DNA of 64,000 bases from Dasania marina DSM 21967 (GTDB lineage Bacteria; Pseudomonadota; Gammaproteobacteria; Pseudomonadales; Dasaniaceae). Under the pieces are notes generated by a model. The model worked only from the letters and a program-made list of their open reading frames with translations. It was not told where the DNA came from and did no database searches. A program made the position numbers and the translations under genes. Location of the stretch: positions 219,698-283,697 of the forward strand of contig NZ_KB891585.1 in NCBI RefSeq assembly GCF_000373485.1. Direction: 5' to 3'. Shown here one piece after another: positions 11,558-49,934 of the stretch (position 1 is its first letter; each line of letters starts with the position of its first letter).

Positions 11558-13819
<2,262 letters not shown>

Positions 13820-15340: not shown

Positions 15341-15346
15341 AGAATG

Positions 15347-16612: not shown

Positions 16613-16614
16613 AA

Positions 16615-27402: not shown

Positions 27403-27464
27403 TACTTAATTATGTCTTTTGCATCTGTTGAGTAGTTATTTTGAAAGAAGAAGAGTGTACAAAT

Positions 27465-28718: not shown

Positions 28719-30095
28719 ATGAATGCTGAAAGCACTGCAACTATAACCAGCTTAGAAACGCCTACTCGAGACGACGAAGCATTTTTAGGCCACCCCAAAG
28801 GCCTAGGCTATATTATTTTCACAGAAGCCTGGGAGCGTTTTTCTTTTTACGGTATGCAAGCCTTACTGGTGCTTTACCTATCCAACTACCTACTACTTCC
28901 AGGGGCTATTGAGCAAGTCATCGGTTTTAGTGGCTTTAGATCGTTAATGGAAGCTGTCTTTGGCCCCCTTTCAATAAAGGCATTGGCAACCCAATTTTTT
29001 GGTTTGTATATCGGGCTTGTATATTTTATGCCGGTATTCGGTGGCCTTATTGGCGATCGTTATCTCGGTCGAACTCGGGCGGTCGTTATTGGCGCTATAC
29101 TCATGGCCATCGGTCATTTTCTTATGGCCATAGAAGCTGCATTTTTATTTGCGATAGCTTTTCTGATATTAGGCTCAGGCTTTCTAAAAGGTAACCTAGC
29201 TGCGCAAGTAGGCGGGCTATATAAAAAAGAAGATCAGCGGCTGGATGCCGGTTATGCACTCTATACTATTGCAATAGTCGTAGGGGCCTTTGCAGCACCG
29301 TTAGTCTGTGGAACCTTAGGCGAACTCTACGGATGGCATTATGGTTTTGGCGCAGCCGGCATAGGCATGATAGTCGGTATGATAATTTACCTGTGTGGTC
29401 GGCAACATTTACCCATAGACAAACCAGCAGTAAATAACAAAGATAAGGTCAAGCTTAAAAAAGCCGACATAAACCTAGTGTTATCAATTCTTCTTTTGCT
29501 GGCCATTACTGCGCTATTCTGGACGGCACAAAGCCAAGTATGGAATGCCTATCCCCTATGGGTACAAGCTCGTGTGGATCGTGAGCTTTTTGACATGATC
29601 ATACCGGTTACTTGGTTTCAGGCCATGGATACATTCGCGGTACTTTTATTTGCGCCAATTATTCTATGGCTTTGGAAGCGGCAGGCTGCTAAAAAAACAG
29701 AAACCGGAGACTTAAACAAAATTGCCATCGGTTGTGCTGCTTTTGGCATTGCTTGCCTGTGGCTGGGCAGCTCAGAATTGAACAGAGGTGATACCCAAAT
29801 CAACTTAATATACCCGGTTATTTTTCACTTGATCTGTTCGGTGGGTTTTTTGTATACCGGGCCAACAACTCTAGCGCTAGTATCACGCGCGTCACCACCG
29901 TCTGTCAACGCTGCCTTGGTGGGCTGTTATTATCTTGCCATCTTTATTGGCGGTATTTTTAGCGGTTGGTTGGGGCGTTTTTTTGAAATACTATCACCAG
30001 CTAACTTTTGGTTTATGCACGGCGCTATAGTGGCCTCAGGTGCAGTACTTATATTGATGTTGAAGGGGTCGTTGCTAAAAGTTCTGGTCAAGTAA
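28719..30095 (+). CDS. POT-family (proton-coupled) di/tripeptide transporter
   Basis: The 458-residue inner-membrane protein has about 12 hydrophobic helices. The POT signature EAWERFSFYGMQALLVLYLS and GRTRAVVIGAILMAIGHFLM are present. The segment after the fourth helix reads GFLKGNLAAQVGGLYKKEDQ, also typical (usually a GNxxPN-like motif; here GNLAAQ). The family imports di- and tripeptides with protons, as in DtpA. The serine hydrolase upstream may act on what it imports. A GGAG ribosome site precedes the ATG. Confidence 0.88.
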   Translation: MNAESTATITSLETPTRDDEAFLGHPKGLGYIIFTEAWERFSFYGMQALLVLYLSNYLLLPGAIEQVIGFSGFRSLMEAVFGPLSIKALATQFFGLYIGLVYFMPVFGGLIGDRYLGRTRAVVIGAILMAIGHFLMAIEAAFLFAIAFLILGSGFLKGNLAAQVGGLYKKEDQRLDAGYALYTIAIVVGAFAAPLVCGTLGELYGWHYGFGAAGIGMIVGMIIYLCGRQHLPIDKPAVNNKDKVKLKKADINLVLSILLLLAITALFWTAQSQVWNAYPLWVQARVDRELFDMIIPVTWFQAMDTFAVLLFAPIILWLWKRQAAKKTETGDLNKIAIGCAAFGIACLWLGSSELNRGDTQINLIYPVIFHLICSVGFLYTGPTTLALVSRASPPSVNAALVGCYYLAIFIGGIFSGWLGRFFEILSPANFWFMHGAIVASGAVLILMLKGSLLKVLVK

Positions 30096-30162: not shown

Positions 30163-31212
30163 TTAAGGAGCTGAGTTATATCGATTTTTATGGTGACTAG
30201 GATGAACCATGAATTCATCGTCAGAGATATTTATGGCTTCAGGAAACTCTTCTTCTATCATTTTTAATAGCCAGTTTCGGAAACGGTCTATGGGTATGGC
30301 ATCCCACCGATCTACACGTGCAATAAATAAATAGGCACCTAATGCTAAATTCTTAAAGTTTTCATTGTTAGCACCTACGTCAAGCAAACGACCACTTTTC
30401 AAATCATCTGCAGCAACTAAATAATTAGTCAATGCCACGCCGCTGTGATGACGAGCGGCCTCCAGTGTCAAATGGCTTTGCCAAAGACGCGGACCAGAAA
30501 GCTCAATGTCTTCATCAATACCATTGGCGGCTAACCATGAGCGCCAGCGCTCAAATCCATCCTCATGTAATAAATGATGCTTAAGTAAATCTCGAGGGGT
30601 ATTAATAGCCTCTTCTCGCTGCAGGTATTCAGGGCTAGCCACAGCAATAATCGGTGGCCTAGCAATCTCTAAGGCACGTACATAAGCGGGTAGCTCTAAC
30701 GCGGGACGGTAATAGGGAGAAAAACGTATATCTACATCGGCTTCGCGCCTTTCGAAATCAGGCCCTTGGTTGGTAGGCCGTAGTTCAATATCCAGATTGG
30801 GATAAGATTTTTCAAATCTACCTAAACGAGCCATTAACCACTGCAAGGTAAAACCGGGCATGCTCCAGACTTGAACTTGATCCACATTATTGTGCTTCAT
30901 TAATTCCACCGTGGCATTGGCGATCGTATCAATGGCCAATGCAATTTCCTGGTGGTAACGGACGCCGTCTTCGGTTAGCACAGCACCCGCAGGTGTACGC
31001 TCTATCAGCTTGGCGCTGGTCCAATCCTCTATGCTTTTAAGGTGGCGGCTAACAACCGCATGATCACGGCACAAATGCTGCGCAGCCTTTCTCACACCGC
31101 CTAAGCGCGCAACGGCATCAAAAGCTCTCAGCGCTTCAAAGGGAGGTAAAGACTTACGAGCAGGCAGTTTTGATATTGAAGGCGTTAGATGATTAATTTT
31201 ATCGTCGGGCAT
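30163..31212 (-). CDS. LysR-family transcriptional regulator (GcvA-like)
   Basis: The 349-residue protein has an N-terminal winged helix at about residues 18-80 (LPPFEALRAFDAVARLGGVR, then KAAQHLCRDHAVVSRHLKSI) and a LysR substrate domain after it. The GcvA-type LRAFxAVARxGS start with RHLKxxE is clear. It lies 130 bases downstream of the aldehyde dehydrogenase on the same strand, so it may control that gene or the peptide transporter operon nearby. An AGGAG ribosome site is present. The effector is unknown. Confidence 0.9.
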   Translation of the reverse strand: MPDDKINHLTPSISKLPARKSLPPFEALRAFDAVARLGGVRKAAQHLCRDHAVVSRHLKSIEDWTSAKLIERTPAGAVLTEDGVRYHQEIALAIDTIANATVELMKHNNVDQVQVWSMPGFTLQWLMARLGRFEKSYPNLDIELRPTNQGPDFERREADVDIRFSPYYRPALELPAYVRALEIARPPIIAVASPEYLQREEAINTPRDLLKHHLLHEDGFERWRSWLAANGIDEDIELSGPRLWQSHLTLEAARHHSGVALTNYLVAADDLKSGRLLDVGANNENFKNLALGAYLFIARVDRWDAIPIDRFRNWLLKMIEEEFPEAINISDDEFMVHPSHHKNRYNSAP

Positions 31213-31342: not shown

Positions 31343-32767
31343 TTAGAAAAAAACCGCCTTTACTTCTAGATATTCCTCAATTCCCCAGGCGCCTCTTTCG
31401 CGACCGTTACCGGATTTTTTAAATCCACCAAAGGGTAAGTCTAGTGCGGCGGCAGCGCCATTTATATGTACCATACCCGCTTGTATTTTCGGGGCTACGT
31501 CACGTGCCTGCATACTGGATTTTGCAAAAATATACGCCGATAATCCAAATTCCGTATCGTTAGCCATTGTTACTGCATCGGATATATCATCGTAGCGTAA
31601 AACACACAAAACGGGGCCAAAAATTTCTTCTTTAGCAATACTCATACTACTGGTTACGTTGCCAAAAATTGTGGGCGCAACATAGTAGCCTTTAGAAAAC
31701 CCCTCGACCCTGCCTGCCTGACCGCCCACGATAATGTCGGCGCCCTCCTCTTTTCCTAGGGCAATGTAATGACAGACACGTTCAAATTGCTGCTCATTCA
31801 CCAAAGGCCCCAGTATGGTGCCTTCCTCAGCTGGGTCCCCTACTTTCATCTTGCCGGCAACCGATTTTGCAACGGCAATGGCTTCATCATAATCGTCGTT
31901 ATGCACCAACAGGCGAGTCGGTGCATTACAGGACTGCCCACTATTATAAAAACAGCGTTCCACACAATGGCTAACCGCGGAGACAATATCTGACCCAGGT
32001 AAAATCACAAAGGGCGACTTCCCTCCCAGCTCTTGTGATACACGCTTAACCGTTGGTGCAGCGGCGGTGGCAACTTCTACACCTGCTCGGGTGGAACCTG
32101 TAATGGAAACAATATCTACATCTGGATGACGTGATAAGGCAGCGCCGACTATATAATTACCCTGAACCAAATTAAATACACCGGCAGGTACACCCGCTTC
32201 ATCAAGAATTTCGGCAAATAAGGCTGCACTATATGGCGCATACTCACTTGGCTTCAGCACCATGCAGCAGCCTGCTGCCAAAGCAGCGCCCACTTTTGCA
32301 ACGATTTGATTCATGGGCCAGTTCCAAGGTGTAATGAGCCCTGCAACACCGATAGGTTCTTTACGAATCTCTGCTGAATCTCGTTGTGAGGAAAACTCAA
32401 ATGACTCCAGTGTCGCCCTAATACTCTTCAATAGGCCGCTACCAACCGCAACCTGGGCGTTTCTGGACATGCTGATCGGCGCCCCCATTTCACTTGAAAT
32501 CGCCTGCGCCATTTCTTCATAGCGGCGCGTATATACAGCTATAATCGCATCAAGCAAGTCAAGTCGGTAGGCCTTATCTGTTTGGCTAAAAGACGGAAAT
32601 GCCCTCTTGGCAGCAGCAACCGCTTGATTAACAACCTGTGCATTGCTGAGAGGTAAGCGGCCTATAGGCTGTTCATTCGCTGGCGAGACAATGGTAAACC
32701 ACTGTTCGATATTATCCGCATTCCAGCTGCCATCAATATAGTTGCTTTCTGTTAGACCTATTTCCAT
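31343..32767 (-). CDS. NAD(P)-dependent aldehyde dehydrogenase
   Basis: 474 residues. Catalytic residues are Asn149 (TPWNWPMNQ), Glu246 (QELGGKSPFVIL) and Cys280 (NSGQSCNAPTR). The Trp-Pro-Met-Asn segment and the SxELGGKSP block put it in the general aldehyde/betaine-aldehyde group and not the methylmalonate-semialdehyde group, which is CoA dependent. The substrate cannot be read. It precedes a LysR gene and is cytoplasmic, and it could serve the aldehyde formed by the nearby omega-aminotransferase. Confidence 0.88.
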   Translation of the reverse strand: MEIGLTESNYIDGSWNADNIEQWFTIVSPANEQPIGRLPLSNAQVVNQAVAAAKRAFPSFSQTDKAYRLDLLDAIIAVYTRRYEEMAQAISSEMGAPISMSRNAQVAVGSGLLKSIRATLESFEFSSQRDSAEIRKEPIGVAGLITPWNWPMNQIVAKVGAALAAGCCMVLKPSEYAPYSAALFAEILDEAGVPAGVFNLVQGNYIVGAALSRHPDVDIVSITGSTRAGVEVATAAAPTVKRVSQELGGKSPFVILPGSDIVSAVSHCVERCFYNSGQSCNAPTRLLVHNDDYDEAIAVAKSVAGKMKVGDPAEEGTILGPLVNEQQFERVCHYIALGKEEGADIIVGGQAGRVEGFSKGYYVAPTIFGNVTSSMSIAKEEIFGPVLCVLRYDDISDAVTMANDTEFGLSAYIFAKSSMQARDVAPKIQAGMVHINGAAAALDLPFGGFKKSGNGRERGAWGIEEYLEVKAVFF

Positions 32768-33052: not shown

Positions 33053-33883
33053 ATGTTTATTTTTAGACCAAAAAACTATCAAATTATGTTATCTCTTCTA
33101 TTATTTATAGCCTCACCAGCTATGGCCGATAAGAAAGATTACCGCATACTGCTTACCAATGACGATGGAATTCATGCGGCTGGATTAACAGCTCTTGTCA
33201 ATGCACTTAGCCAAGACTATAAGGTGATAGTTTCTGCTCCAGCAAAAAAGTGGGGAGGTAAAAGCCACGCCACCTTACTATGGGAAAAACCTATAACTGT
33301 TGAAGAAATAACGCTGTCAAATAAAGCAAAAGGCTATTCCGTTCACGCCTTACCCGCTGATGCCGCTAGATTTGGCATTATACATCAACGTGAACTTAAC
33401 CAGCCTGTGGATTTATTAATATCAGGTGTAAACCATGGTGAAAACCTGGGAACTCTCTCGCATTTATCAGGTACTGTTGGTGCCGCTATGGAAGGCACCT
33501 ACTATGGCATTCCAGCGATTGCTGTCTCTATAGAGAAGCGCGCGGCGACAGAAAATGATTTTGCAGCAACCACTGAAGCGATTAAAATACTGATTGAAAA
33601 GATTAGAGAAAACGGCTTGCCTGTAGGGACTATACTTAATGTTAATGTACCGGAAAATGCCAAAGGAATGCGTATAGCCCCTATGGACGGAGTAAATGTT
33701 AGTGTGGATAGATTCATTAAAACGAACAATGATTATAAACCGGTATTTTCCTATCCTAAGGCACAAATGGGCTATAGCGACATGACTGTTTATAGCAAAG
33801 GCTATATTGCTGTTACACCGATAAAAATTGACTGGACAGATCACCAATCTCTTCAAAAGATGCATGCATGGGATCTTAACTAA
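33053..33883 (+). CDS. SurE-family 5'/3'-nucleotidase with a signal peptide
   Basis: 276 residues. An N-terminal signal (about residues 1-25, LLLFIASPAMA before DKK) precedes a SurE domain. The metal motif is TNDDGIHAAG with Asp37 and Asp38. The other SurE motifs are SGVNHGENLG and HLSGTVGAAMEGTYYGIPAI. SurE normally acts in the cytoplasm on nucleoside monophosphates and is not exported. Here a GGAG site six bases before the ATG supports the start that includes the signal. It should therefore act in the periplasm as an acid phosphatase or nucleotidase. It stands alone, with hairpins downstream. Confidence 0.85.
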   Translation: MFIFRPKNYQIMLSLLLFIASPAMADKKDYRILLTNDDGIHAAGLTALVNALSQDYKVIVSAPAKKWGGKSHATLLWEKPITVEEITLSNKAKGYSVHALPADAARFGIIHQRELNQPVDLLISGVNHGENLGTLSHLSGTVGAAMEGTYYGIPAIAVSIEKRAATENDFAATTEAIKILIEKIRENGLPVGTILNVNVPENAKGMRIAPMDGVNVSVDRFIKTNNDYKPVFSYPKAQMGYSDMTVYSKGYIAVTPIKIDWTDHQSLQKMHAWDLN

Positions 33884-34405: not shown

Positions 34406-35548
34406 CTAAGGCGTAATACGCTTTCTTACCCACATACTAACGCCGAATATTGCTAGCAGTGCTGTCATTAGCCCAATTAATGAAACAACAAATGAACCCA
34501 CCGGCCCAGCTAAGTGTCCACTGTGTAGTGGTAACCTTAACGCTGATAAAAAATCACCGGCGCTACCCGCTCTAGGATTCTCTACACCTAGAACATCTCC
34601 ACTAGCACCGCCAATATAGATAGTATTTGGACCCAACCCCGTATTGCAATCACAGTCAAGGCTAACACTGTAGCTATTTTTCCCCATCGAATAAGATATT
34701 TTTTTCGGTATAGTCGGCAGACTATTACTGTCAGCATAAATTATTGCGGCTGTTAGGGCCGAAGTGAAATCTATCTTTTGAGAGGCTAATGCAGACTCAT
34801 CGATAACAAGCTTCTCGGTGTATGGGGAAATAGTGTCGACTATGGGGTCAAACAACTCGCTAGACAAGTTCATGGATACACCACTAATAGCGGTAGTCAG
34901 CATAAAAACCCAACACCATAAGCCAATGCTTTTATGCAGTTGCAAAAACTTTATTCGCCAGGGGTGTCGCCACTGAACAAGCCAAGACTTCTTCCACGCC
35001 TTAAAAAATGTGCCTCCACGAGGGAGGGTTAGGTAAATCCCCATCAGAGACAATACTATCCAAAAAAGCCCTACTATGCCCAGAATTCGACTTCCCCAGG
35101 GCTTTTGCAGTAATAAACGATTATGCAGCTTGTAGATGAACGGGATAATATTTTGAGACTCAAAACAACATTCGCCCCACATACGCCTACCTTTTACCTC
35201 ACCACTGACTGGATTGACAAAGACCTCATCATAGTCGATCTCATAAGGCTGGCTAGTAGTAGGGTTAACTCTTGGCTCAACATAGGCTATTAGGGCGTGT
35301 TCTGCTTCCTGGCTGATGGGTAGATAATTAACGAGAATACGCGGATCACTAGCTTCTATCTTTGCTACTAATTCAGATGCTGGTAAACTTCTTTCACCAG
35401 CCTCCGCAATGGTAAACAACTGAGGATTTAGCCATATTTCTAGTTGATCCTTAAAGGCAATAACACTACCTGTTAGGCCTGAGCATATAAGAAAGGCTGC
35501 TAGCATTAACCCAATATATCTGTGAAAAGTAACAACCTTCGCACGCAT
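34406..35548 (-). CDS. PepSY-domain inner-membrane protein (PepSY_TM/PiuB-like)
   Basis: The 380-residue protein has four membrane helices near residues 10-30, 155-175, 205-225 and 350-375, with a periplasmic loop between the first two. It is the paralogue of the protein at 38514-39623. Both share GRRMWGECCFESQNIIPFIY (here), LHNRLLL and the tail RAGSAGDFLSALRLPLHSGH. PepSY_TM proteins such as FoxB and PiuB are linked to ferric-siderophore reduction. The substrate here is unknown. An AAGGTGG site precedes the ATG. Confidence 0.85.
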   Translation of the reverse strand: MRAKVVTFHRYIGLMLAAFLICSGLTGSVIAFKDQLEIWLNPQLFTIAEAGERSLPASELVAKIEASDPRILVNYLPISQEAEHALIAYVEPRVNPTTSQPYEIDYDEVFVNPVSGEVKGRRMWGECCFESQNIIPFIYKLHNRLLLQKPWGSRILGIVGLFWIVLSLMGIYLTLPRGGTFFKAWKKSWLVQWRHPWRIKFLQLHKSIGLWCWVFMLTTAISGVSMNLSSELFDPIVDTISPYTEKLVIDESALASQKIDFTSALTAAIIYADSNSLPTIPKKISYSMGKNSYSVSLDCDCNTGLGPNTIYIGGASGDVLGVENPRAGSAGDFLSALRLPLHSGHLAGPVGSFVVSLIGLMTALLAIFGVSMWVRKRITP

Positions 35549-35570
35549 AAAACCACCTTTAAAATTGAAA

Positions 35571-36290
35571 TTATATTGCTATCGAAAAACCAAGGCTAAG
35601 CCAAAATTGATCACCTAAGCCTTCGCGCTGAACATCTTTCTGCGCCCAGCTTTGGTTAATATTGGCAAATATTGCCGTGCTACCGGAAAGTTGATAAGTG
35701 ATATCAACGCCCAGCTGTAAGTTATTAGGGCCATCATGCTTTTGGGTGGCAAAACCTAAATCAAAACCTTCGGTGACATAGGGCTCTATGCTTATACCCT
35801 GCTCTTTAAATTCAAAAATTGAGCGCAAACTTAACTCTACAAAAGCACCCGAGGCTTCGGTTGCATAGACATAATCCACTGATGGCACTATAGAAAATAT
35901 GTCTTCAAAAACGACTCCCACTGAAAACTCATTATCATTTTCATTACTGCCTAAAAATGTCAGCCTCGTGTAGCCCACGGTAAATTCCGTGCCCGCCCAG
36001 TCAAAGCCGTATTCAAGCCCCACTTTCAGCTCTTGGTAGGGGTCATGGCTACCCTGGCCATACCACAAGGTAGCCGTGAGCGATTGCCAATGTGCAAATG
36101 CTTCTAAGGAGTACAGATCCTTGCCATCGACATTATCGCGGCCTTCGGCGATATAACGGCTGTGCTTAGCTAAACGCCCTTCAAATGTCACTTGACTATC
36201 ATCGATAGCTGAGGCTTCAGCAATGGCTGGCATGGTACATAGAAACAACAAAGCCGAACTTTTTAATACTTTAAATTGATTTTTTAACAT
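35571..36290 (-). CDS. Predicted outer-membrane beta-barrel protein, function unknown
   Basis: The 239-residue protein has a signal peptide (LLFLCTMPAIAEA, cleavage near residue 25). A series of alternating amphipathic strands follows, ending with an aromatic-hydrophobic strand and a final Ile (WLSLGFSIAI). The AKHSRYIAEGRDNVDGKDLY strand recalls small porin-like families, but I cannot name one. It lies five bases after the OprO/P-like gene and 22 before the PepSY gene, in one operon. Confidence 0.7.
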   Translation of the reverse strand: MLKNQFKVLKSSALLFLCTMPAIAEASAIDDSQVTFEGRLAKHSRYIAEGRDNVDGKDLYSLEAFAHWQSLTATLWYGQGSHDPYQELKVGLEYGFDWAGTEFTVGYTRLTFLGSNENDNEFSVGVVFEDIFSIVPSVDYVYATEASGAFVELSLRSIFEFKEQGISIEPYVTEGFDLGFATQKHDGPNNLQLGVDITYQLSGSTAIFANINQSWAQKDVQREGLGDQFWLSLGFSIAI

Positions 36291-36295
36291 TGCTA

Positions 36296-37657
36296 TTACC
36301 AGCTTAACTGACTACGCAATACCAAAGAATTACCGCTATGGTCGGTAGATCCTTGGGGCTGTACCGCTATGCTTTCGCTGACATCAAAATGTATTAAATT
36401 CGCAGAAACTCGCAGCTGAGCCCGGGGGTACCAATTAAGGCCTAGTGTATAGACATGACCTTTCCCCCCATAAATATCACCGTCCACCAAATCCATATAA
36501 CTACCGCGCAAGGCCATTTCTAAAGCGCCTAAGCCGCCGGCCTCTACACCGTTGGTCGGTACTATGCCACCAAACTTACCACGCCCACGTTGATAGCTGC
36601 GCTGCTCGCCGGTAATAATCCAGGCGGCCTGCAGGTAGCCGCTAACAAAACTAGCATCTGGCAAATTCATATAATCTACCGTTTGTTGACCTAACTCTGC
36701 CTGCAATAACACATTATTATACTGATAAGCCGTTTCTAGGCCGGTATAGCTGATATCATTAGCGCTGTGAGTACCGGTATCAAACAACGCGGCTAGCTGG
36801 TGATTCTCTGGCTGGCTGCTTAATCGGTAATCGCCATCATCATCCAGCTCAACATAATAAGCAGCAACCCCCATATGCAGTGTTTGTTGATCATTTTGCC
36901 AAGGAGTCACTAATAACCGTGAGGCAAAACGCCAACCTTCGTTTTGACCTGCTGTAGTATCAGATTCTGGCTTACCAAACAAACCCGTGTTCAAAGACCA
37001 CCAAGTGCCCTGAGTTTCAAGCCCTATGCCTACAGAACGACCTAAACTCAAAGCATTGTGCAGCGAACGCTCAAGAAAACTATGGTTGGAATCACTGGTT
37101 TCGTCATCCAGTGACACTGAGGCTTCGTGATGACCTACCCTAATGGATGTCACTTCACTTAATTTATAGCGAATGAATATGTCTTCGAAGCCTACTTTTT
37201 TATTACTAAAATCTATTTCTGCTACGTAATCTGTAGAACCACTAATATCACCTTGCACGCCAAGGCGTACGCGCCTGATTTCAGTGCCACTACCATAATC
37301 GTCATCAGCATACATAGCATCAGCTTGCAGCTTACCCCGTGATTTAAAGGTAAAACCCTCGGGCTTTGCACTAAATTTCGGGGCTGGGTTGCCCCAACTT
37401 ATCGCCGTGTTGTTTGATGGCAAGATTAGCGTTTCCTCTATACGCCCATCAGCACGGCTGTTAGCAGTTTCAAGCCGCTCTAATCTAAGTTTTAATGAAT
37501 CAAGCTGACGTTCCTGTACAGTGATGGCCTCACGAATCGTTTTAAGCTCATCTGCCTGCACTGCCGCCACCGAGGTCATGGCAACAGAAAATACCAGCAA
37601 GCCACTGTTAATTGAGCTAATTTTTTTATAAATTTCCATAAGTTTTTTAGTTCTCAT
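36296..37657 (-). CDS. Outer-membrane porin, OprO/OprP (phosphate-selective) type
   Basis: 453 residues. A signal sequence (SVAMTSVAAVQA) is followed by a coiled-coil segment of about 40 residues (IREAITVQERQLDSLKLRLE). The porin barrel then starts KSRGKLQADAMYADDDYGSG and RRVRLGVQGDI. It closes with a C-terminal RSQLSW, the aromatic end seen in porins. The family makes anion-preferring trimers. The true substrate is not predictable, and neighbouring PepSY and hydrolase genes suggest a special nutrient. The ATG at 37657 has no strong ribosome site. A second ATG lies six codons in. Confidence 0.83.
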   Translation of the reverse strand: MRTKKLMEIYKKISSINSGLLVFSVAMTSVAAVQADELKTIREAITVQERQLDSLKLRLERLETANSRADGRIEETLILPSNNTAISWGNPAPKFSAKPEGFTFKSRGKLQADAMYADDDYGSGTEIRRVRLGVQGDISGSTDYVAEIDFSNKKVGFEDIFIRYKLSEVTSIRVGHHEASVSLDDETSDSNHSFLERSLHNALSLGRSVGIGLETQGTWWSLNTGLFGKPESDTTAGQNEGWRFASRLLVTPWQNDQQTLHMGVAAYYVELDDDGDYRLSSQPENHQLAALFDTGTHSANDISYTGLETAYQYNNVLLQAELGQQTVDYMNLPDASFVSGYLQAAWIITGEQRSYQRGRGKFGGIVPTNGVEAGGLGALEMALRGSYMDLVDGDIYGGKGHVYTLGLNWYPRAQLRVSANLIHFDVSESIAVQPQGSTDHSGNSLVLRSQLSW

Positions 37658-37691
37658 TGCATTAATTTAATTATCAATAAAGGCCATATTG

Positions 37692-38126
37692 CTAAGGCGA
37701 GTTAGCGATAGGCTTCAATAGCAACTCACCACTTATCGTTTTGTCTGCGAAGCGGGCCTGCCAATGCTCAGTAATATTGCCATCACCCAATTGCCACTGG
37801 CTGTTTAAAAGAAAGCGACGGCCCGTTTTATATTGCACGCCATGCCCTTGACATTGCGCACGGCTAGCATTTTCTGAAAGCAAACAAGTAGCGCGATAAA
37901 TTGAATAGTTATCTTTTCCATCTACCTCTAAAAACTGGCCATTTTTTTGCATGACTACCACGCCACCATCACCATCAGACCAAGACCCGCCAGCAGCAAA
38001 AACACGATTGCTCTCTGCAGCATTTAGCGATAGAGGCAATAAACACAATATCCATTTTGAAAATGGGCTAAATATAATTTTTTTGAGCCTATCTATAGGC
38101 TTGTTGATCATTGCAAACTCGTTCAT
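37692..38126 (-). CDS. Small exported protein, function unknown
   Basis: About 144 residues with a hydrophobic stretch (WILCLLPLSLNAA) in place of a signal. The mature part carries GGSWSDGDGGVVVMQKNGQF and two Cys residues (CLLSENASRAQC). The ATG at 38126 has GGGAG five bases upstream. An ATG four codons earlier (38138) has no such site. It is first in the minus-strand operon with the porin, barrel and PepSY genes. Read it as a periplasmic or outer-membrane accessory protein; the family is unknown to me. Confidence 0.6.
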   Translation of the reverse strand: MNEFAMINKPIDRLKKIIFSPFSKWILCLLPLSLNAAESNRVFAAGGSWSDGDGGVVVMQKNGQFLEVDGKDNYSIYRATCLLSENASRAQCQGHGVQYKTGRRFLLNSQWQLGDGNITEHWQARFADKTISGELLLKPIANSP

Positions 38127-38406
38127 CAGCTCTCCCATGCCTAGTTAGCGCTACGTTTTCGAGCCAGTATAAGAAAATCAAGACTATGAGGAAGTTGCCA
38201 ATTGCTGTAGCCATGGTGATAAATTGGCAACAGCCCTGTAGAAAGGCGCTACAGCTACATATCAGGGGGGAAAGCGGCATGAAAATAGAGTTATACCTAG
38301 AGTCTAGCGCCTTAATCGGGGTTGACTCTGTACGGAAAATATTCGGGTACAGCAGCACAACTACCAGCACACCGGCAGTTGCTAAATCAGAATAGCTTGG
38401 TGACAA
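38089..38406 (-). CDS. Possible small membrane protein overlapping the operon start
   Basis: This 105-residue frame has two hydrophobic stretches (GVLVVVLLYPNI, then MATAIGNFLIVLIFLYWL). It starts with TTG without a ribosome site and overlaps the start of the next gene on the same strand by about 40 bases. It may be a real leader gene, or chance in the divergent promoter region. I do not recognise a family. Confidence 0.3.
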   Translation of the reverse strand: MSPSYSDLATAGVLVVVLLYPNIFRTESTPIKALDSRYNSIFMPLSPLICSCSAFLQGCCQFITMATAIGNFLIVLIFLYWLENVALTRHGRADERVCNDQQAYR

Positions 38407-38513
38407 ATTGGCAACTGAAATAGCTTATAGCTAGCCGTATACTACTGGCTTAATAATGATGTATTAAGTCACTTTTATCAGTTATCCCCTATTTAAAAAC
38501 TTGGAACTGAGGC

Positions 38514-39623
38514 ATGAAAACTTTTATCCAAAGATCTTTTTTATTATGCACAGCGATAATGGCATTGTTACTGGCTATTGCAGCTTTCACCGGCGCCATC
38601 CACGCATTTTATTATGAGATTGATGAATGGCTAAACCCACAGTTTTACCAAACCAACAGTTCCGGCCCTGCACTACCTGCCTCAGAGTTAATTACTCGCC
38701 TGGAAAATAAAGTGCCTGGGGCGGAAGTGTGGTACCAACAAATACCTGCAGCCCCTGGTAGAAGCAGCATGCTAGCAGTTTCACCCAGCTGGGATGAAAG
38801 CAGCGGGCAATATGCACAACTTGAAAACAACTACTTTTATATGGATCCAGTAAACGGTGAAATTATTGGCGCTCGTATGTGGGGAAAATGTTGTTTTGAA
38901 GCTGAAAACTTACTTAATTACCTCTATGAGTTGCACCACTCATTAACTCTGCCTGGCTCTATAGGCTCTTCAATTATGGGCGTGGTGGCCTGTGTTTGGG
39001 GCTTGGCCTGCTTGTGGCTACTGTATACCGCTGTTGTTAGAAAAAAAGGCCTATCCATTCTTGGCTTATCACTACCCACTACGGTTTTACTGGCAATATT
39101 AATGCTGCCGGTTGCGCTTAGTAGTATCGCCATGAATTTTTCACAGCAACTATTTAAGCCCATTGTGTCGCTGTTTTCTCCCGTCACTGCCAGTATTTAT
39201 GAACAATACGCTGAGCGTAAGCAAACTAATTTTGGGGAACGACTGCTCAGCTATCAAGACGCTTATCAACAGGCTATTAAATTGGGCAAGCAGCGAGGCT
39301 GGACACAGCCTATAGGTGAGCTTTTTTATAGCCATAGCTATAATTTTTATGGCATGGCTTTTGGCTTTCGTGACCCCGCAGGTATGGGCAACAATTGGCT
39401 ATATCTTAGCGCAGAAAATGGTGAGCTAGTTGGCAAAAAAACACCACGAATTGGTTCCGCAGGTGACTTATTCTACTTTGGGCAATTGCCATTACACAGC
39501 GGTAGAAGTCATGGCTTCATCAGCCAATTATTCATTTTTATCATTGGGCTAACCACAGCTGGATTGTCGGTTTTGATAATGATAAAGACCATAAAAAAAG
39601 TAATTTGGATAAAACCCCTTTAA
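38514..39623 (+). CDS. PepSY-domain inner-membrane protein, paralogue of 34406-35548
   Basis: The 369-residue protein has four helices and the same arrangement as the minus-strand paralogue. Shared text is RMWGKCCFEAENLLNYLYEL with a CC pair, LPASELITRLE near residue 56, and RIGSAGDLFYFGQLPLHSGR at the C-terminus. It is divergent from the porin operon and followed 21 bases later by the P1 peptidase. Two PepSY paralogues on opposite sides of a shared promoter region suggest one regulated unit. The redox or siderophore-reductase role of PepSY_TM proteins is a family-level inference. Confidence 0.82.
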   Translation: MKTFIQRSFLLCTAIMALLLAIAAFTGAIHAFYYEIDEWLNPQFYQTNSSGPALPASELITRLENKVPGAEVWYQQIPAAPGRSSMLAVSPSWDESSGQYAQLENNYFYMDPVNGEIIGARMWGKCCFEAENLLNYLYELHHSLTLPGSIGSSIMGVVACVWGLACLWLLYTAVVRKKGLSILGLSLPTTVLLAILMLPVALSSIAMNFSQQLFKPIVSLFSPVTASIYEQYAERKQTNFGERLLSYQDAYQQAIKLGKQRGWTQPIGELFYSHSYNFYGMAFGFRDPAGMGNNWLYLSAENGELVGKKTPRIGSAGDLFYFGQLPLHSGRSHGFISQLFIFIIGLTTAGLSVLIMIKTIKKVIWIKPL

Positions 39624-39644
39624 ATCAACAAACAAGGCAAGAGC

Positions 39645-41024
39645 ATGGATTCTAGTAAAAAAATTAACCTTCCCATCATTTTTCTTATTAGCACACTTAC
39701 CGCCCCTCTATCTTGGGCAGCTGCAAATCAACAGGACAGCCTGAAGCCACGTATTAACAGCAAAAGTGAAAGAAGCCTAAATTATGACTGGCCTATAATA
39801 AAAGTCGGTACAGGCAGCTATGAAGAGGGGCCGACGGGAGTTACCGTTTTTCATTTCGATCGCAAGGTTAATGTTGCTGTTGATGTACGCGGTGGCGGTC
39901 CAGGCACTGTTAATGCGCCCTATATGGACCTAGGTTACGATATGGCAGAACTCGATACAGTCGTTTTTGCCGGCGGCTCGTGGTATGGGCTGGAAGCGAC
40001 TACGGCGGTGGCCACGGCACTAAAAGATGACGGCCTTCGCGATGGCGACGCCTTTTCCCTGACGCCTAATATAGCGATGTCGGTAGGCTCGATTATATTT
40101 GATTTTGGGGCGCGTAGGCTAAATGAAATATACCCCGACAAACGTCTTGCCCAAGCAAGCTATCGTGCGGCAAAAACAGGAAGCTTTCCGCTAGGCCCCC
40201 ATGGTGCAGGGCGTTCAGCTGTTTCCGGTGGCCTGTTTGGCTGCAACGCGTTTTCTGGACAAGGTGGTGCCTATAGAGAAATTGGCGACATAAAAATTGC
40301 CGCCTTTACCGTGGTCAATTCCCTAGGTGCTATTGTAGACCGCAAAGGAAAAATAGCCGCTTGCTATCAAGGTGAAGGCTGGCCAGAAAAGATAGACATC
40401 GCAGAGCTATTAGCCAAATTCCCTGATAACTTAACAGACTGGGGTGATGATCAACAACAGGCTAGCAGTAAAAACACAACCATTAGCTTAATAGTAACCA
40501 ATCAGAAAATGTCGCAAGCCGAGCTAAAACGTTTGGCCACCCAAGTCCATACATCTATGGGCAGAGGCATTCAGCCTTTTACCACTATCTTCGACGGCGA
40601 TGTACTCTATGCCGTTTCTACAGCTGAACTTGAGGAGAATACTATGTCCTCCGCAGTGCTAGGCACTGTCGCATCAGAAGTCATGTGGGATGCCATACTG
40701 TCCTCGGTGCCTGAGCAGCCAAAACACGCAGTAGCTAATAACCGATTAAGCTTAAATAAAAAGCACCTAAATAAGCTAACCGGTGAGTATACCTTTAGTG
40801 AGTTTGCTCAAATCACGATAAGCAGAGACAGTAGTAAATTATACGCACAGGCTACAGGGCTACGTGACGTATTTGCTATAGGGCGTACTACAGCAACCGA
40901 ATTAATCCCCGTTTCTAAGAATGTATTTATGGTGCCTGGTCGCTACCCGCTTACACTTAGCTTCGAAACGACAGATGAGCTAATTATCAACCCCGGTAAA
41001 TGGCAGCAAACAGCTCGTCGTTGA
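39645..41024 (+). CDS. P1-family (S58, DmpA/BapA-like) self-processing peptidase
   Basis: 459 residues. A signal peptide (ISTLTAPLSWAA) precedes a P1/ArgJ-type Ntn fold with GPTGVTVFHFDRKVNVAVDV and GAGRSAVSGGLFGCNAFSGQ. The self-cleavage site is probably before Thr in SKNTTISLIVTN (residue about 283). It is followed by VHTSMGRGIQPFTTIFDGDV. The family cuts amino-terminal residues, including beta-amino acids in BapA and D-residues in DmpA. An extra C-terminal tail of about 80 residues follows the Ntn domain. It lies directly behind a PepSY gene, with a strong terminator-like hairpin after it. Confidence 0.85.
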   Translation: MDSSKKINLPIIFLISTLTAPLSWAAANQQDSLKPRINSKSERSLNYDWPIIKVGTGSYEEGPTGVTVFHFDRKVNVAVDVRGGGPGTVNAPYMDLGYDMAELDTVVFAGGSWYGLEATTAVATALKDDGLRDGDAFSLTPNIAMSVGSIIFDFGARRLNEIYPDKRLAQASYRAAKTGSFPLGPHGAGRSAVSGGLFGCNAFSGQGGAYREIGDIKIAAFTVVNSLGAIVDRKGKIAACYQGEGWPEKIDIAELLAKFPDNLTDWGDDQQQASSKNTTISLIVTNQKMSQAELKRLATQVHTSMGRGIQPFTTIFDGDVLYAVSTAELEENTMSSAVLGTVASEVMWDAILSSVPEQPKHAVANNRLSLNKKHLNKLTGEYTFSEFAQITISRDSSKLYAQATGLRDVFAIGRTTATELIPVSKNVFMVPGRYPLTLSFETTDELIINPGKWQQTARR

Positions 41025-41076: not shown

Positions 41077-41426
41077 TTCTATAGTCCTTTTAATGCATCC
41101 CCTCTAAACCCCCTACCATTCATGATCGCTGCTCTGGCGTCTATATTGTAATTTCCATAGCCACTCCTGTACTAATCATTTGCCAAGCTATAGTTGGCAG
41201 CACAGGATCACAGCAGTAGTTCACCACATACTATATAAGATACAAAATTATGGTTTTTCAGAACGAGGAATGATGCTTTAATAAATTTATTCTAGCTTCA
41301 TCTACTTGATATATAACTGATGCAATGCTTCACAAGAACATAGATTTATGTAAGCAAAAAACCATAACATATTTACAAGGCGTTGTTTACGCAGCTAGTG
41401 CTTATATAAAGTTTCAATAAGATAAT

Positions 41427-41458
41427 AGCATGAAGGGTTTAGTTAAACCCTTCATGCT
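41427..41458 (-). terminator. Strong hairpin after the first TonB-dependent receptor gene
   Basis: AGCATGAAGGGTTT (41427-41440) pairs perfectly with AAACCCTTCATGCT (41445-41458) across AGTT. It lies 32 bases beyond the receptor stop. The minus-strand trail is ATTATCTTATTG. Confidence 0.75.
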
Positions 41459-41489
41459 AACAAAGCCCATAATACTACTAGTATTGTGA

Positions 41490-43928
41490 CTAATATCGAT
41501 AAGCCAAAGTAAACCCTACAGTCCTTGGACTGGCAATGCTATCGCGAGCGCCATTGCCTAACCAATTTTCAAACACCCCTGTATCTAAGCCATGATAAGC
41601 TTCAGGAAAAGACCCTGTCACAGCTTTCTCATCGCCAATATTTTTCACATACAAAGAGGCTGCCCAGTTAATAGACTCTAGCGTTATCGATGTATTCCAT
41701 AATGAAAAAGACTCTAGTTTTTTAGACAATGTACTATTTTCAGTAATATAATTTTTCATATTTGACTGATAGTAACCATTCAATCTTAGTACTAGATCCC
41801 AGCTTTCATTGACAGGCATTGTATAATCTAGTGCAACGTTAAGCAGCTGATCTGGGATTCCTGGCAGCTCTTCACCGTCTTCAGCAATGATATTATTAAA
41901 CTGGCGACCAATAAAATCATCTGTTAACTCAGCGTTGGTATAAGTATATCCAGCAGAGTAATGCAATCTATCAGTCAAATACCCTTCAACTTCCATTTCC
42001 AGGCCTTGAGTTCTTGCCGACTGGCCATTAGCAGCCATAAAGAAACCGAAAGCACCTGTTGTGGTATTAATTTGAGGGGTATCCCAATCCACATAAAACA
42101 AAGAGACAGTATATGAGGTGCTTTCTGTTTTCCCCTTTATGCCCACTTCGTAGTTTATTGCCGAGTCGCTTTCATAGGTCAAAATTGTTTCATGGTTAGG
42201 CTCACCAAAGGGCAATCCAAAAGGCACTATCGCATTGGATCCACCACGGCGATAACCTTCAGAAATGGTACTGTACAACATATTCTCATCATCTAAATCC
42301 CAGGATACATTCACCTTGAATAAAACATCATCATCCTCAAAACTGGGCTGAGTCACGGTTGGCACAGTTGGATCACAAACACATATAGGAAAGCCTAACT
42401 GTACAGTGTTCTCAAATGTCGTTTTAAACCAGCGCATGCCGCCTGTAATACGTAAATCATCGGTGATGTTATAAGAGGCCTCACCGTAAAGTGAAATATC
42501 GCTAATTTCTTCATCCCTTTGATAGATAGTATCAATCTCAGTTGTTTCAAAGCCCAAGGCCAAAGGTGCATATTCGGCAAGGCCTTTTTGTAGGCTAAAC
42601 TGCCCCACCTCTCTTTCCTGGTCCATATAAAATAATCCAGCTACCCAGTCAATAGAGCTATAACTCTCATTGGAGACAAATCTTAGCTCTTGTGTGATAG
42701 CTGAATCAGAAAATGAACGATCTGCAACCACCGCTGGACGCGGCATTCCTGGATAGTAGTTATTAAAAAACTGCCTTCCACCGCTCACCCAGATGGCTGT
42801 ATTATCGCTCTCAGCATTGCCTTCATGTGTATAATAAGAGCTATTTGATGTCATGGTGGCAAAGCCCATATCCCACTCAAGGTCAAGGCTGGTTAACTCT
42901 ACATCTCGGGAAGAAGGTTCTGCGAGTGTGGAGCCATTGTCAAACTCCCCATATTTGTTGCCAACATAATCCGAGCCTGGGGTAATAGCTCTACGCCCAC
43001 CCGTCTCGTCGGACTGTTTCTGATAACTGGCCTGAACGCTTAAATCATTATTAATATTCCAAAGTATAGAAGCGCGGGCATAGGATATTTCAACCCAATC
43101 CATATCGTCTTTATTTTGGTAGCACGAGCCATTATTTACTTTTTGGTCGTTTGTAGCTGTTTCAGGTGCTATGCAATCACCAGCACCAGTATCAATCAGT
43201 GGGTCACCTCCAGGGCTTAACTGATAAAGGTTTTTGTAATCAATCACGCCATCATTATCGACATTGCCGGCACCAACACGAACAGCAACATTGTCCGTAA
43301 TAGGTATGTTGACCATAACATCATTGCTTAAATTACTGCCGTCAGACCCTCGGGTTTGGCTATAATCAGTTTTTATACTGGCTTCAAATTGGCTAGGATC
43401 AGGCTTATTGATAATATACCGCACCGTGCCACCGAGCGAGCCCGACCCATACAAGGTACCCTGGGGCCCGCGCAGCACCTCAACACGCTGAAGGTCCTTG
43501 AGAAGAAAATTAGAAAAAATTGGTGTGGCATCGACATAAGTGGATACCGTAGGCACAGCAGACAAAGCCACATCACCTTGACTACCCCCATCAACATTCA
43601 AACCACGCACAATAATGCTATTAACGGTACCGGCATTTCTCTGGCCGCGATCAGCTACAACGATACCTGTCATTGATCTTAATAATTCGCTTTGATCTGT
43701 GATATGTTGTGCGTTTATAAGGTCACCCTGAACTGCTGATATATTATAAGGAATGTCCTGTATTGAGCTAGCCCGTGACGTAGCAGTTACTATAACCTCT
43801 TCTAGTTTTACACTGTTTTTTTCTTGTGCACTGGATACACTGGGTGACACAGTTAAGACAACGCTTGAAGCTAACGCTTTGGCCATTAAATTTTTTCTAA
43901 AAATTGAACGATTTAGATTAATCTGCAT
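41490..43928 (-). CDS. TonB-dependent outer-membrane receptor
   Basis: 812 residues. A signal segment is followed by a TonB-box region (VKLEEVIVTATSRASSIQDI) and a plug domain with RVEVLRGPQGTLYGSGSLGG. The 22-strand barrel that follows ends in the aromatic strand RTVGFTLAYRY. Such receptors import siderophores, vitamins or oligomers using TonB. No ligand motif can be read. It is the distal receptor of a minus-strand block with two propeller-amidohydrolases. The 450-base gap upstream and strong terminator suggest its own unit. Confidence 0.92.
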   Translation of the reverse strand: MQINLNRSIFRKNLMAKALASSVVLTVSPSVSSAQEKNSVKLEEVIVTATSRASSIQDIPYNISAVQGDLINAQHITDQSELLRSMTGIVVADRGQRNAGTVNSIIVRGLNVDGGSQGDVALSAVPTVSTYVDATPIFSNFLLKDLQRVEVLRGPQGTLYGSGSLGGTVRYIINKPDPSQFEASIKTDYSQTRGSDGSNLSNDVMVNIPITDNVAVRVGAGNVDNDGVIDYKNLYQLSPGGDPLIDTGAGDCIAPETATNDQKVNNGSCYQNKDDMDWVEISYARASILWNINNDLSVQASYQKQSDETGGRRAITPGSDYVGNKYGEFDNGSTLAEPSSRDVELTSLDLEWDMGFATMTSNSSYYTHEGNAESDNTAIWVSGGRQFFNNYYPGMPRPAVVADRSFSDSAITQELRFVSNESYSSIDWVAGLFYMDQEREVGQFSLQKGLAEYAPLALGFETTEIDTIYQRDEEISDISLYGEASYNITDDLRITGGMRWFKTTFENTVQLGFPICVCDPTVPTVTQPSFEDDDVLFKVNVSWDLDDENMLYSTISEGYRRGGSNAIVPFGLPFGEPNHETILTYESDSAINYEVGIKGKTESTSYTVSLFYVDWDTPQINTTTGAFGFFMAANGQSARTQGLEMEVEGYLTDRLHYSAGYTYTNAELTDDFIGRQFNNIIAEDGEELPGIPDQLLNVALDYTMPVNESWDLVLRLNGYYQSNMKNYITENSTLSKKLESFSLWNTSITLESINWAASLYVKNIGDEKAVTGSFPEAYHGLDTGVFENWLGNGARDSIASPRTVGFTLAYRY

Positions 43929-44380: not shown

Positions 44381-46501
44381 TTAAAAGTTGTAGCCAACTT
44401 TAATACCTATGGTACGAGGGCGTGTACGATTTGCGTTATTCCATGCGCTGTAGGGATCTATGTATTTATTCTCATCAGTCAGGTTCTGACCATAGAGTTC
44501 AAAATTCATATCACCCATGGTTAGGCCTAAGCGTGCATCCAACAAACCAATCTTGTCTGAAAACTGATCGACATATTCTTCAGGAAAGCTGGTTCTATCA
44601 ACATAGGGCATTTCATCTCTGTAGCTATAACCTACGCGCAAAAACCCAGGATTAGCCTCCGTCCACATAAAGTCATATGTGGCGCCTAAGGTAAAGCTGT
44701 AATCAGGAACATAATCTATAGGATCCCCAGGGATATTCGCCGTATCAGTAGCGCCTATAGCCTTAACCTCAGCATCGATAATAGCTAGCGATGCATCAAG
44801 AGTTAGTGCGTCGGTGGCTTTCCAGTTTATAGAGCCATCAAAGCCGGTGACCTCCACTTTACCGATATTACTGATTAGTGACTGGAAGCCACGGCCTTGA
44901 ATAAAGATCAAACCTCGACGCAGCATATCGTCATACTTAGTGTGATAAAGCGCCATATCTACATAGAGTTTACCGTCCAGCAAGCTGGCTTTATAACCTA
45001 TCTCATAACTCCAAAGCGACTCTGGGTCAAAGTCAGGTAATTCAGCACCGCCAAAATCGTAGCCATTAAAACCACCACTACGGAAACCTTTTGCCGCGCT
45101 GGCGTATATACTTTTATTGTCATCTACCGCATACGTTAAGTAGAAACGAGGATCAACCGAATCAAAAGTGCCGCTTTGCTCACCAGCAGAACCGGATACA
45201 AGATCAGTTTGCTCGTCTTCAAAATAGCGAACACCTAAGCCTACATTTAATTGCTCTGTTAATTGATATGAAACATCGGCAAATACAGAGTAAGATTCGG
45301 AGGTTTGCTCGGTGAAGTAATCCGATAGATAAACTATACCGAAATATTCTGTTGCGACTTCGGGTATGCTTAAATCCATCGTCATATCACTGTAAAAAAC
45401 ACCAGTCGTCCATTGCAATTGATTATCGCCAGTAGAGGCAAGTCGCAGCTCTTGTGTAAATTGATCACCCGAATTGTGTCGGTTGCTGTAACCTGAGAGA
45501 TCACCTGCGTAAACAGTTTCAGGGCCACCGAAGTACGAGAATGGGTATTTAACGTCCATTTCGACATAAGAGGATGAACTCAGTAACTCAGCAAAGCCTA
45601 AATCATAAGTTACCTCAAAATTATAAACGTCGTAATCCCACTCTTTAGGCTTTAATTTAGTTGATGGATCAACTGCGACGTACACAGTACGGTCAGGCTG
45701 TTCATAGCCCTGACCCAGTTCATATTCTGCGCTATAGGTCATTACTGTAGCAAGCACTTCTAGCTTATCTGTAGCTTTCCATAACGCTTTAAGACGTGCA
45801 GTTTTTAATTCTTCGCCATTGCCATCTTTAATGCCAGCTTCAGGCTGGTCTTGCCAACCACCACCATCTTTGAAATCTGCAGCTAATCTAACAGCAAATT
45901 TATCCTCTACTACAGGCGCATTAATAATTGCGGTGGCACCAAAACCAAGCTCACCTTCAGAAACTGAAAAAGCTTCACCTTCTAAACGTCCAGAAAATCC
46001 ATCCATATTCGGGCGAGCGGTAATATACCTAATAGCGCCACCCACAGCACCTTGGCCGTAAAGGGTTCCCTGCGGCCCTTTCAGAACCTCTACCCGCTCT
46101 AAATCAAGTGTCCGAACAGGCAATATTTCGGTCCCGGTTAATACCATAGGTATTTCATCTTGATATATGCTGGTTAATGCCCCGCCGCCATGAGCATTGG
46201 CAATACCCCGTAAAAATACTTGATAGCTACCAGGTCCATCCTCTCGCATAGTTAAACCGGGTACGGCAAAAGAAAGGTCCTGAATATTATCAATCCCTCT
46301 AACTTTTAATTCATCGCCTGTTAATGTCGATACCGCCATCGGCACATCAATTAGCCGTTGTTCGCGCTTTGATGCCGTTACAAGAACTTCCTCAAGGCGG
46401 GCTGTTTCATTAGCAACAGCTGTATTGGCTAAGGGCATTGCTATAGCCAGCATCATTCCACTTCCTAGAAATCTTTTTTTATTCGTATATATTTGCTTCA
46501 T
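44381..46501 (-). CDS. TonB-dependent outer-membrane receptor
   Basis: About 706 residues from the ATG at 46501, where GGAGG sits five bases upstream. A longer frame to 46579 is unlikely, since it lacks such a site. The signal (MMLAIAMPLANTAVA) is followed by the TonB-box region ARLEEVLVTASKREQRLIDV. The plug contains RVEVLKGPQGTLYGQGAVGG, and the C-terminus is RPRTIGIKVGYNF. It is similar in size class to many Alteromonad and Sphingomonad oligomer receptors. It is 116 bases downstream of the propeller-amidohydrolase gene and probably shares its transcript. Confidence 0.92.
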   Translation of the reverse strand: MKQIYTNKKRFLGSGMMLAIAMPLANTAVANETARLEEVLVTASKREQRLIDVPMAVSTLTGDELKVRGIDNIQDLSFAVPGLTMREDGPGSYQVFLRGIANAHGGGALTSIYQDEIPMVLTGTEILPVRTLDLERVEVLKGPQGTLYGQGAVGGAIRYITARPNMDGFSGRLEGEAFSVSEGELGFGATAIINAPVVEDKFAVRLAADFKDGGGWQDQPEAGIKDGNGEELKTARLKALWKATDKLEVLATVMTYSAEYELGQGYEQPDRTVYVAVDPSTKLKPKEWDYDVYNFEVTYDLGFAELLSSSSYVEMDVKYPFSYFGGPETVYAGDLSGYSNRHNSGDQFTQELRLASTGDNQLQWTTGVFYSDMTMDLSIPEVATEYFGIVYLSDYFTEQTSESYSVFADVSYQLTEQLNVGLGVRYFEDEQTDLVSGSAGEQSGTFDSVDPRFYLTYAVDDNKSIYASAAKGFRSGGFNGYDFGGAELPDFDPESLWSYEIGYKASLLDGKLYVDMALYHTKYDDMLRRGLIFIQGRGFQSLISNIGKVEVTGFDGSINWKATDALTLDASLAIIDAEVKAIGATDTANIPGDPIDYVPDYSFTLGATYDFMWTEANPGFLRVGYSYRDEMPYVDRTSFPEEYVDQFSDKIGLLDARLGLTMGDMNFELYGQNLTDENKYIDPYSAWNNANRTRPRTIGIKVGYNF

Positions 46502-46617
46502 AAGAACCTCCACCTTTAATAATTTCTGAATTTTAACAGTACCTTGATAGCATCGACTGCGGAAGGTGCCAAAGAACACCGCAGCGGTGCATCATTGTCA
46601 CCATAATGTTTATAGGC

Positions 46618-49884: not shown

Positions 49885-49934
49885 CGTACACCCCAATATT
49901 TAAAACAAGTGACTAAAACTATTAAACGAGTAGC

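Follow-up and report, generated by a model that had tools for sequence, protein, structure and literature searches.

FoxB of Pseudomonas aeruginosa (PDB ID: 7abw), which goes with the receptor FoxA and ferrioxamine, is described in the available part of PMC13038864 as a ferrioxamine reductase whose redox cofactors are two bis-histidine hemes. PepSY_TM proteins also serve other hydroxamate systems: in the accessible text of PMC10866019, FhuB of Burkholderia cenocepacia, encoded by one PepSY gene beside a TonB receptor gene, is needed for hydroxamate xenosiderophores, and catabolic genes are not described there; in that of PMC13001220, the PepSY reductase of the Caulobacter HiuABC system needs a second protein, the small membrane protein HiuC, for some hydroxamate siderophores. 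The nylon-oligomer hydrolases are represented by the solved structures of NylA (3a2p), NylB (1wyb), NylC (5xys) and Nyl12 (9z0a), and the natural substrate of NylC-type enzymes is not given in the available parts of PMC10858056 and PMC13269358. Here, we report that a 64,000-nucleotide stretch of Dasania marina DSM 21967 (contig NZ_KB891585.1, positions 219,698 to 283,697; hereafter the window) carries a conserved gene island in which relatives of both groups are encoded together, among them two PepSY_TM proteins that we call PepA and PepB. Compared with the FoxB system, there are two FoxB-like proteins of different lineages here, one of them without the cytosolic-side histidines, and no FoxA-type receptor stands alongside; a porin, a barrel-like protein and amide hydrolases are found instead. 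Compared with the nylon system, the hydrolases are accompanied by siderophore-reductase relatives, and a NylA-like amidase occurs in one lineage only. We tentatively read the island, with somewhat less than even confidence, as serving to take up a metal-binding oligoamide, reduce it by way of heme and break it down by hydrolysis, the compound being most likely a foreign ferric hydroxamate-type siderophore.

By sequence, FoxB is the sole strong solved relative of both proteins (4.3e-69 over residues 1-377 of PepA; 3.9e-75 for PepB), and it is also the only strong fold match (2.7e-22, TM-score about 0.7) of the PepB structural model, which is of modest confidence with a mean pLDDT of 65. Because this nearest solved relative is a heme siderophore reductase, the initial annotation of this DNA was right to suggest that the gene set is redox-linked. 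The likeness to FoxB extends over the fold, the sequence family of both proteins, a cysteine pair and, in PepA, the four-histidine plan.

Relatives were drawn from genome samples in which each species is represented once, in overlapping searches of 194 (order), 369 (class) and 398 (phylum) genomes plus the window; the class and phylum searches scored the best 4-5 candidates per genome, so that the tallies are lower bounds. After removal of seven duplicates from the first set and of six rows outside 300-520 amino acids (aa) from the alignment, there were 68 full-length PepSY_TM proteins, namely 53 aligned, 5 long rows (from among those six) and 10 from the 11 loci that ORF calling had first missed. 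These cover matches with a fetched locus; a fragment (L015) and a protein without a match (L004) stand outside the 68.

The heme-ligand role of the four histidines is taken from the available text of PMC13038864, and the membrane faces are deduced from topology. PepA keeps all four (H9, H142, H205 and H342), as do 64 of the 68 full-length proteins (49/53 aligned, 5/5 long and 10/10 further), the exceptions being the four PepB orthologues, i.e., those of the window, of the same-genus genome G099, and of G447 and G542. In each of these four, the histidines of transmembrane helices 1 and 3 (TM1 and TM3), which by topology would be the cytosolic-side ones, are absent, and neither TM3 nor the N-terminal 28 residues hold any histidine. 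PepB keeps the periplasmic-side histidines of TM2 and TM4 (H141 and H328) as well as the cysteine pair. Between the TM2 histidine and the end of TM3, the four PepBs have 67 residues, 18 fewer than PepA (85), and the 49 other aligned rows have 74-107. PepB is a FoxB-like protein by fold and by clade that lacks the full set of histidines of the FoxB type. PepA is very probably a FoxB-type reductase, and PepB quite probably lacks the cytosolic heme. PepB is under purifying selection: the ratio of nonsynonymous to synonymous substitution rates (dN/dS) is 0.11 and 0.18 for PepB and 0.075 and 0.088 for PepA, values to be read with the high dS between Dasania species (1.1-2.0 for pepA/pepB), and we rejected a PepB pseudogene on the basis of the PepB ratios.

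Both proteins carry the motif RMWGxCCFExxN, as the initial annotation had observed. The two columns of the cysteine pair (CC) are cysteine in all eight PepA and PepB proteins of the four genomes even though PepA and PepB are only ~30% identical, so the shared motif is not due to chance. The further idea that the pair is unusual, or key to the redox link, was not supported, since FoxB has it at the same place (RLWAACCFQ) and its described redox cofactors are the hemes. The pair is present in 15 of the 53 aligned proteins, eight of which are the PepA and PepB of the four island genomes, and in 0/15 of the further full-length ones, giving 15/68 overall with the two of the window included; we accordingly gave it up as a special feature. 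It is neither unique to this set nor general in PepSY_TM proteins, and the latter means that the proposal was not refuted on the count of the pair being common to all of them. The tree requires four changes to account for the pair, and a single origin may be compatible with it. The host genome has four PepSY_TM matches, and the two outside the window are without the pair in the alignment (L001) or without a match to the motif (L004). A strict search for the DNA pattern in contigs of one genome for each species, a set that may lack records of the window's own genome, returned three stretches. Two are the Dasania genes; in the third, from Shewanella, a stop stands near the motif in its frame, and no PepSY match was found. 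The same PepSY genes are present on a contig of Dasania sp. GY-MA-18. It is the histidines, not the cysteines, that are the more telling difference between PepA and PepB. Apart from the pair, a cysteine in TM2 of PepB (Cys160) occurs in 4/4 PepB orthologues and in 0/49 other aligned PepSY_TM proteins.

PepA and PepB had been called paralogues, a term to be qualified here: they are not sister duplicates. In the tree, PepB is sister to four FoxB-like proteins of one family (f21; support 100/99) and PepA lies elsewhere, so that a tandem duplication was not borne out. The two f21 members examined are encoded in operons of an extracytoplasmic function (ECF) sigma factor, FecR, a TonB receptor and the PepSY protein, and the best model for both receptors is FoxA, the ferrioxamine receptor (1.5e-256 and 9.7e-222, below the cut-off of the model). 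The PepB relatives are therefore likely ferrioxamine-type reductases. A further instance of paired PepSY_TM genes is seen in genome G440 (L097 3888-6511), where two tandem PepSY_TM proteins are encoded beside a receptor-like open reading frame (ORF), and both keep the four histidines.

The PepSY set had been described as one unit. It is indeed part of a conserved unit, but one that spans roughly four times the segment first delimited: an island of ~29 kb that also occurs, rearranged, in two genomes of another order (G447 and G542), so that the genes co-occur, as had been asked, in four genomes including two of another order. The order PepA, barrel, porin, small exported protein, PepB is kept in these two genomes, where an amidase and an Acetyltransf_8 (PF13523) enzyme are inserted between the small protein and PepB genes; the full run is SurE, PepA, barrel, porin, small protein, amidase, Acetyltransf_8, PepB, TonB receptor and two amidohydrolases, and the other side holds the POT symporter, serine hydrolase, omega-aminotransferase, FMN_bind_2 protein, LysR regulator, P1 hydrolase and aldehyde dehydrogenase (ALDH). 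P1 is thus kept at a different place in the island. Identities to the window's proteins are 84% for the omega-aminotransferase, 71-72% for the TonB receptor, 69-75% for the two PD40 amidohydrolases, 61-62% for PepA, 58-60% for PepB, 57-60% for P1, 54% for ALDH, 53-55% for the porin, 43-47% (over part of the length) for the small protein and 37-38% for the barrel.

The distribution of the island is sporadic, and its parts go together. PepB is found in 2/109 genomes of the order of G447 and G542, and the barrel and small proteins in 2/194 genomes of the window's order, with relatives only in the island. P1 is found at E<=1e-30 in at least 2/293 genomes of the class, both with the island; at E<=1e-20 it is found in 8/194 genomes of the window's order, six of these being more distant (29-44% identity). 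Four P1 loci outside the island (two in G105, one each in G157 and G133) have no PepSY match, and of ten neighbours named by Pfam in three of them none recalls the island. Of 31 chosen genomes, four encode the serine hydrolase at >=65% identity, and these are precisely the PepB genomes; at E<=1e-20 it has matches in 26 of the 31, of which 22 have only paralogues of <=43% identity, and five genomes are without a match. As an observation aside, the Acetyltransf_8 enzyme lies beside the NylA-like amidase at L092 11685-12314 (-) and L093 7524-8156 (+), and it is not in the window's island.

P1 had been taken for a P1 peptidase. Its P1/S58 family membership is confirmed by Pfam, but the best solved relatives are the nylon hydrolases Nyl12 (2.7e-55) and NylC (4.2e-55), and the first match not named a nylon hydrolase comes at 5e-19. 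A DmpA/BapA-type peptidase was considered and rejected: among 17 matches no chain is named DmpA or BapA, and an L-aminopeptidase/D-esterase chain is reached only at 3e-13. The Asn-Thr autocleavage site (NTT), the DGD motif and VVN (Asn219 equivalent) are kept in 4/4 island members; we assume for these residues the roles that they have in NylC. NylC is a cytosolic enzyme, whereas P1 is exported by its N-terminus and has a C-terminal extension, present in the island members and absent in three outgroups; it also differs from NylC at the Lys189 equivalent (see below). The amidase of the G447/G542 lineage has NylA as its best solved relative (1.5e-75). The omega-aminotransferase is an AptA equivalog (591 bits, cut-off 500) with beta-alanine/omega-amino acid transaminases as its nearest solved relatives, and, together with ALDH, it presumably matches the later steps of the nylon-oligomer pathway. 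Solved relatives of the amidase, of the serine hydrolase (NylB-type enzymes, as secondary matches) and of P1 lie among the nylon-oligomer hydrolases.

The family relations, the histidine pattern, the synteny and the purifying selection are observed; from them we infer an electron flow, a substrate and an order of steps, as the simplest account that covers both halves of the island. The TonB receptor and/or the O/P-type porin would bring the compound into the periplasm, where PepA, as a FoxB-type two-heme reductase, would move electrons across the membrane and release Fe(II). PepB appears to have kept the periplasmic substrate domain, the cysteine pair and the periplasmic heme site and to have lost the cytosolic heme site; for this reason it is probably a partner protein, which may receive electrons from PepA or from another periplasmic donor, or bind the substrate. 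In HiuABC the partner is a small membrane protein, whereas the one proposed here is another FoxB homologue in altered form. Hydrolysis of the ligand in the periplasm would then fall to the NylC-like enzyme and the two amidohydrolases; its fragments would be imported by the POT symporter and converted into carbon and nitrogen by the serine hydrolase, omega-aminotransferase and ALDH. A hydroxamate siderophore fits because FoxB-type proteins are described as acting on such compounds, and PepSY_TM proteins working on hydroxamate xenosiderophores, as we propose here, have a precedent in FhuB. Desferrioxamines are chains of amide-linked diamine and succinate units. According to the available part of PMC11800396, desferrioxamines in their iron-free form are broken down by bacterial amidases as a source of carbon and nitrogen, in keeping with a reduction that precedes hydrolysis; the same text reports a marine bacterium that degrades a peptidic hydroxamate siderophore enzymatically, with no candidate gene. 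A literature search, which covered few subscription journals, found no paper naming nylonase and siderophore together.

The siderophore would be foreign, since matches to the hydroxamate-synthesis monooxygenase PF13434 are only partial (~60-130 of 339 positions, best 7.7e-10, in 7/8 genomes including G447 and G542). They also occur in 12/14 control genomes, and we rejected siderophore synthesis by the organism itself and read them as ordinary flavoproteins. Please note that these matches exceed the Pfam cut-off in the 7/8 genomes, which weighs against this view, and several other observations do the same for the siderophore reading as a whole. A Fur-box-like site is absent from the divergent region in the four genomes (best 10-12/19, not above shuffles; in the window 10/19, where shuffles average 11.1). 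Among the 12 regions tried, weak 14/19 matches were found upstream of the 41490-43928 receptor (reached by 1.3% of that region's single-base shuffles) and ~45 bp upstream of the FTR1 gene described below (3.0% of shuffles), and two more 14/19 matches lie elsewhere in the window, one of them inside PepB. The TonB receptors near the PepSY genes fit the FoxA/FhuA models weakly or not at all, and the conserved one at 44381-46579 scores 137 bits against a siderophore-receptor cut-off of 223.5. Neither PepSY gene of the window adjoins a receptor, PepA being flanked by SurE and the barrel and PepB by the small protein and P1; a receptor-like ORF adjoins the PepSY gene in 14/19 other loci (L039-L057), and the ORF that follows PepB in G447 and G542 encodes a receptor, but is read from the opposite strand. 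None of the conserved island genes was recognised as an iron transporter. On the catabolic side, the lysine of the 'VGK' motif of P1, equivalent to NylC Lys189, which we take to be catalytic, is glycine in 4/4 island members and lysine in 3/3 outgroups; no orthologue of the NylA-like amidase is found in the window's genome, whose best matches have 28-37% identity; and the closest solved relative of the serine hydrolase is 8rlj, not a nylonase by name, with the NylB-type enzymes behind it. The marine amphibactin degrader of PMC11800396 is moreover reported, in the part available, to have left desferrioxamine undegraded. Our confidence in the siderophore reading stays somewhat below even because no Fur box was found, the receptors are unspecific and P1 has lost its lysine.

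Several of these points would suit a less likely account, in which the island is a locus for using peptides or omega-amino-acid amides and the FoxB-like pair supplies iron or copper, or reduces peptide-bound metal, as a side function: the exported amidohydrolases, P1, POT, LysR, AptA and ALDH are all conserved, there is no Fur box, the conserved receptor stays below the siderophore-receptor cut-off, and the transaminase relatives of AptA point the same way. Against it, two separate FoxB lineages have been brought in and kept under selection, and the PepB clade has two members beside FoxA-like receptors; the Acetyltransf_8 enzyme that joins the island in the other lineage belongs to a family whose usual role is in hydroxamate siderophore synthesis. 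Alternatively, the pair could handle copper, with the cysteines binding Cu(I), which we regard as improbable. The cysteine pair is conserved throughout PepA and PepB, an O/P-type porin and not a siderophore receptor is next door, and PepSY_TM proteins with a copper role exist, e.g., CrpH, which supports heme-copper oxidases according to the available part of PMC13038864; in the same text, though, CrpH and FoxB belong to different clusters, and both proteins here match FoxB, a ferrioxamine reductase with the same cysteines, while the only copper-related hit in the island is a weak NosD-like match of its edge protein (1.7e-8). That PepB is merely a decaying, non-functional copy, its cysteines and neighbourhood being inherited baggage, would explain the loss of two of the four heme ligands and of part of a loop, but it is very improbable, given that the same loss in full-length frames is seen in four species of two orders and that the low dN/dS goes with the retention of the periplasmic-side histidines and cysteines. 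Within the siderophore reading, a more specific form, in which a split reductase pair, with PepB holding a single periplasmic heme, strips iron from a nylon-like hydroxamate polyamide (e.g., a ferrioxamine or bisucaberin) whose ligand is then digested by nylonase-family enzymes, seems to us doubtful at present.

The features of the locus are collected in Table 1. The ORFs of both PepSY genes, the barrel, porin, small protein and P1 were confirmed at the positions and in the frames first annotated, as was the type of the porin. Signal peptides and barrel character were judged by eye. Gaps of 34, 5 and 22 bp separate the leftward run from the small protein through porin and barrel to PepA, and 21 bp separate PepB from P1 in the rightward run, gaps that, on either side of the divergent region, fit two divergent operons. 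Both promoters would lie in the 375 bp between the two runs, but promoter-like matches around this region are at chance (16 found, 16.4 expected). The Pfam search gave no family for either the barrel or the small exported protein, and the fold model of the latter (pLDDT 51) was too low in confidence to be used.

Table 1. Annotated features of the island, in window positions.
Feature	Coordinates	Strand	Description
PepA (PepSY A), RRMWGECCFESQN	34406..35548	-	FoxB-like PepSY_TM, 380 aa; Pfam PepSY_TM 3.3e-55
PepA CC pair codons (C127, C128)	35165..35170	-	coordinates derived from ORF
Barrel-like exported protein, 239 aa	35571..36290	-	outer-membrane barrel judged by eye; no Pfam family
Porin, 453 aa	36296..37657	-	Pfam Porin_O_P 4.8e-53
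Small exported protein, 148 aa	37692..38138	-	no family; invariant Cys C85 and C96
Divergent intergenic region, 375 bp	38139..38513	.	between small-protein and PepB genes
PepB (PepSY B), ARMWGKCCFEAEN	38514..39623	+	FoxB-clade PepSY_TM, 369 aa; Pfam PepSY_TM 8.7e-29
PepB CC pair codons (C126, C127)	38889..38894	+	coordinates derived from ORF
P1/S58 family N-terminal nucleophile (Ntn) hydrolase, 459 aa	39645..41024	+	Pfam Peptidase_S58 1.6e-20; exported by N-terminus
Right-handed beta-helix protein	23925..24860	+	edge of conserved island
FMN_bind_2 protein	24968..25699	+	island member
Class III omega-aminotransferase, AptA equivalog	25896..27191	-	conserved in island
Beta-lactamase-fold serine hydrolase	27441..28664	+	related to 8rlj, more distantly NylB
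POT oligopeptide:H+ symporter	28719..30095	+	conserved in island
LysR-type regulator	30163..31212	-	conserved in island
Aldehyde dehydrogenase (ALDH)	31343..32767	-	island member
SurE-like protein	33053..33883	+	signal-peptide-like N-terminus (by eye)
TonB-dependent receptor	41490..43928	-	only in 2 same-genus genomes of 4 compared
TonB-dependent receptor	44381..46579	-	conserved in island, 71-72%
Exported PD40 beta-propeller amidohydrolase 1	46618..49896	-	conserved in island
Exported PD40 beta-propeller amidohydrolase 2	49935..53198	-	conserved in island

Three more observations concern the surroundings. The P1 and TonB receptor genes converge, and a hairpin of 15 pairs between them (41426-41459) is likely a terminator. 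An FTR1 iron permease fused to a cytochrome c domain is encoded at 54373-56313 (+) of the window and is without a match in the compared stretches of the sister genome, G447 and G542. A second run, at 11558-19396, holds peroxidase, ALDH, M24 peptidase, class III aminotransferase and M20 peptidase genes and is possibly another peptide/amine catabolic set.

To our knowledge, the natural role of the nylon-oligomer hydrolases is an open question. The island makes an answer testable, since it encodes relatives of a siderophore reductase together with those of NylC and NylB and, in one lineage, also of NylA. If the split-pair form were true, it would provide a natural substrate for nylonase-type enzymes and a heterodimeric form for PepSY_TM proteins. 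The electron donor to FoxB is described as unknown in the available part of PMC13038864, and a FoxB homologue with the periplasmic heme site only, as PepB seems to be, would offer a natural test of the electron route to the substrate.

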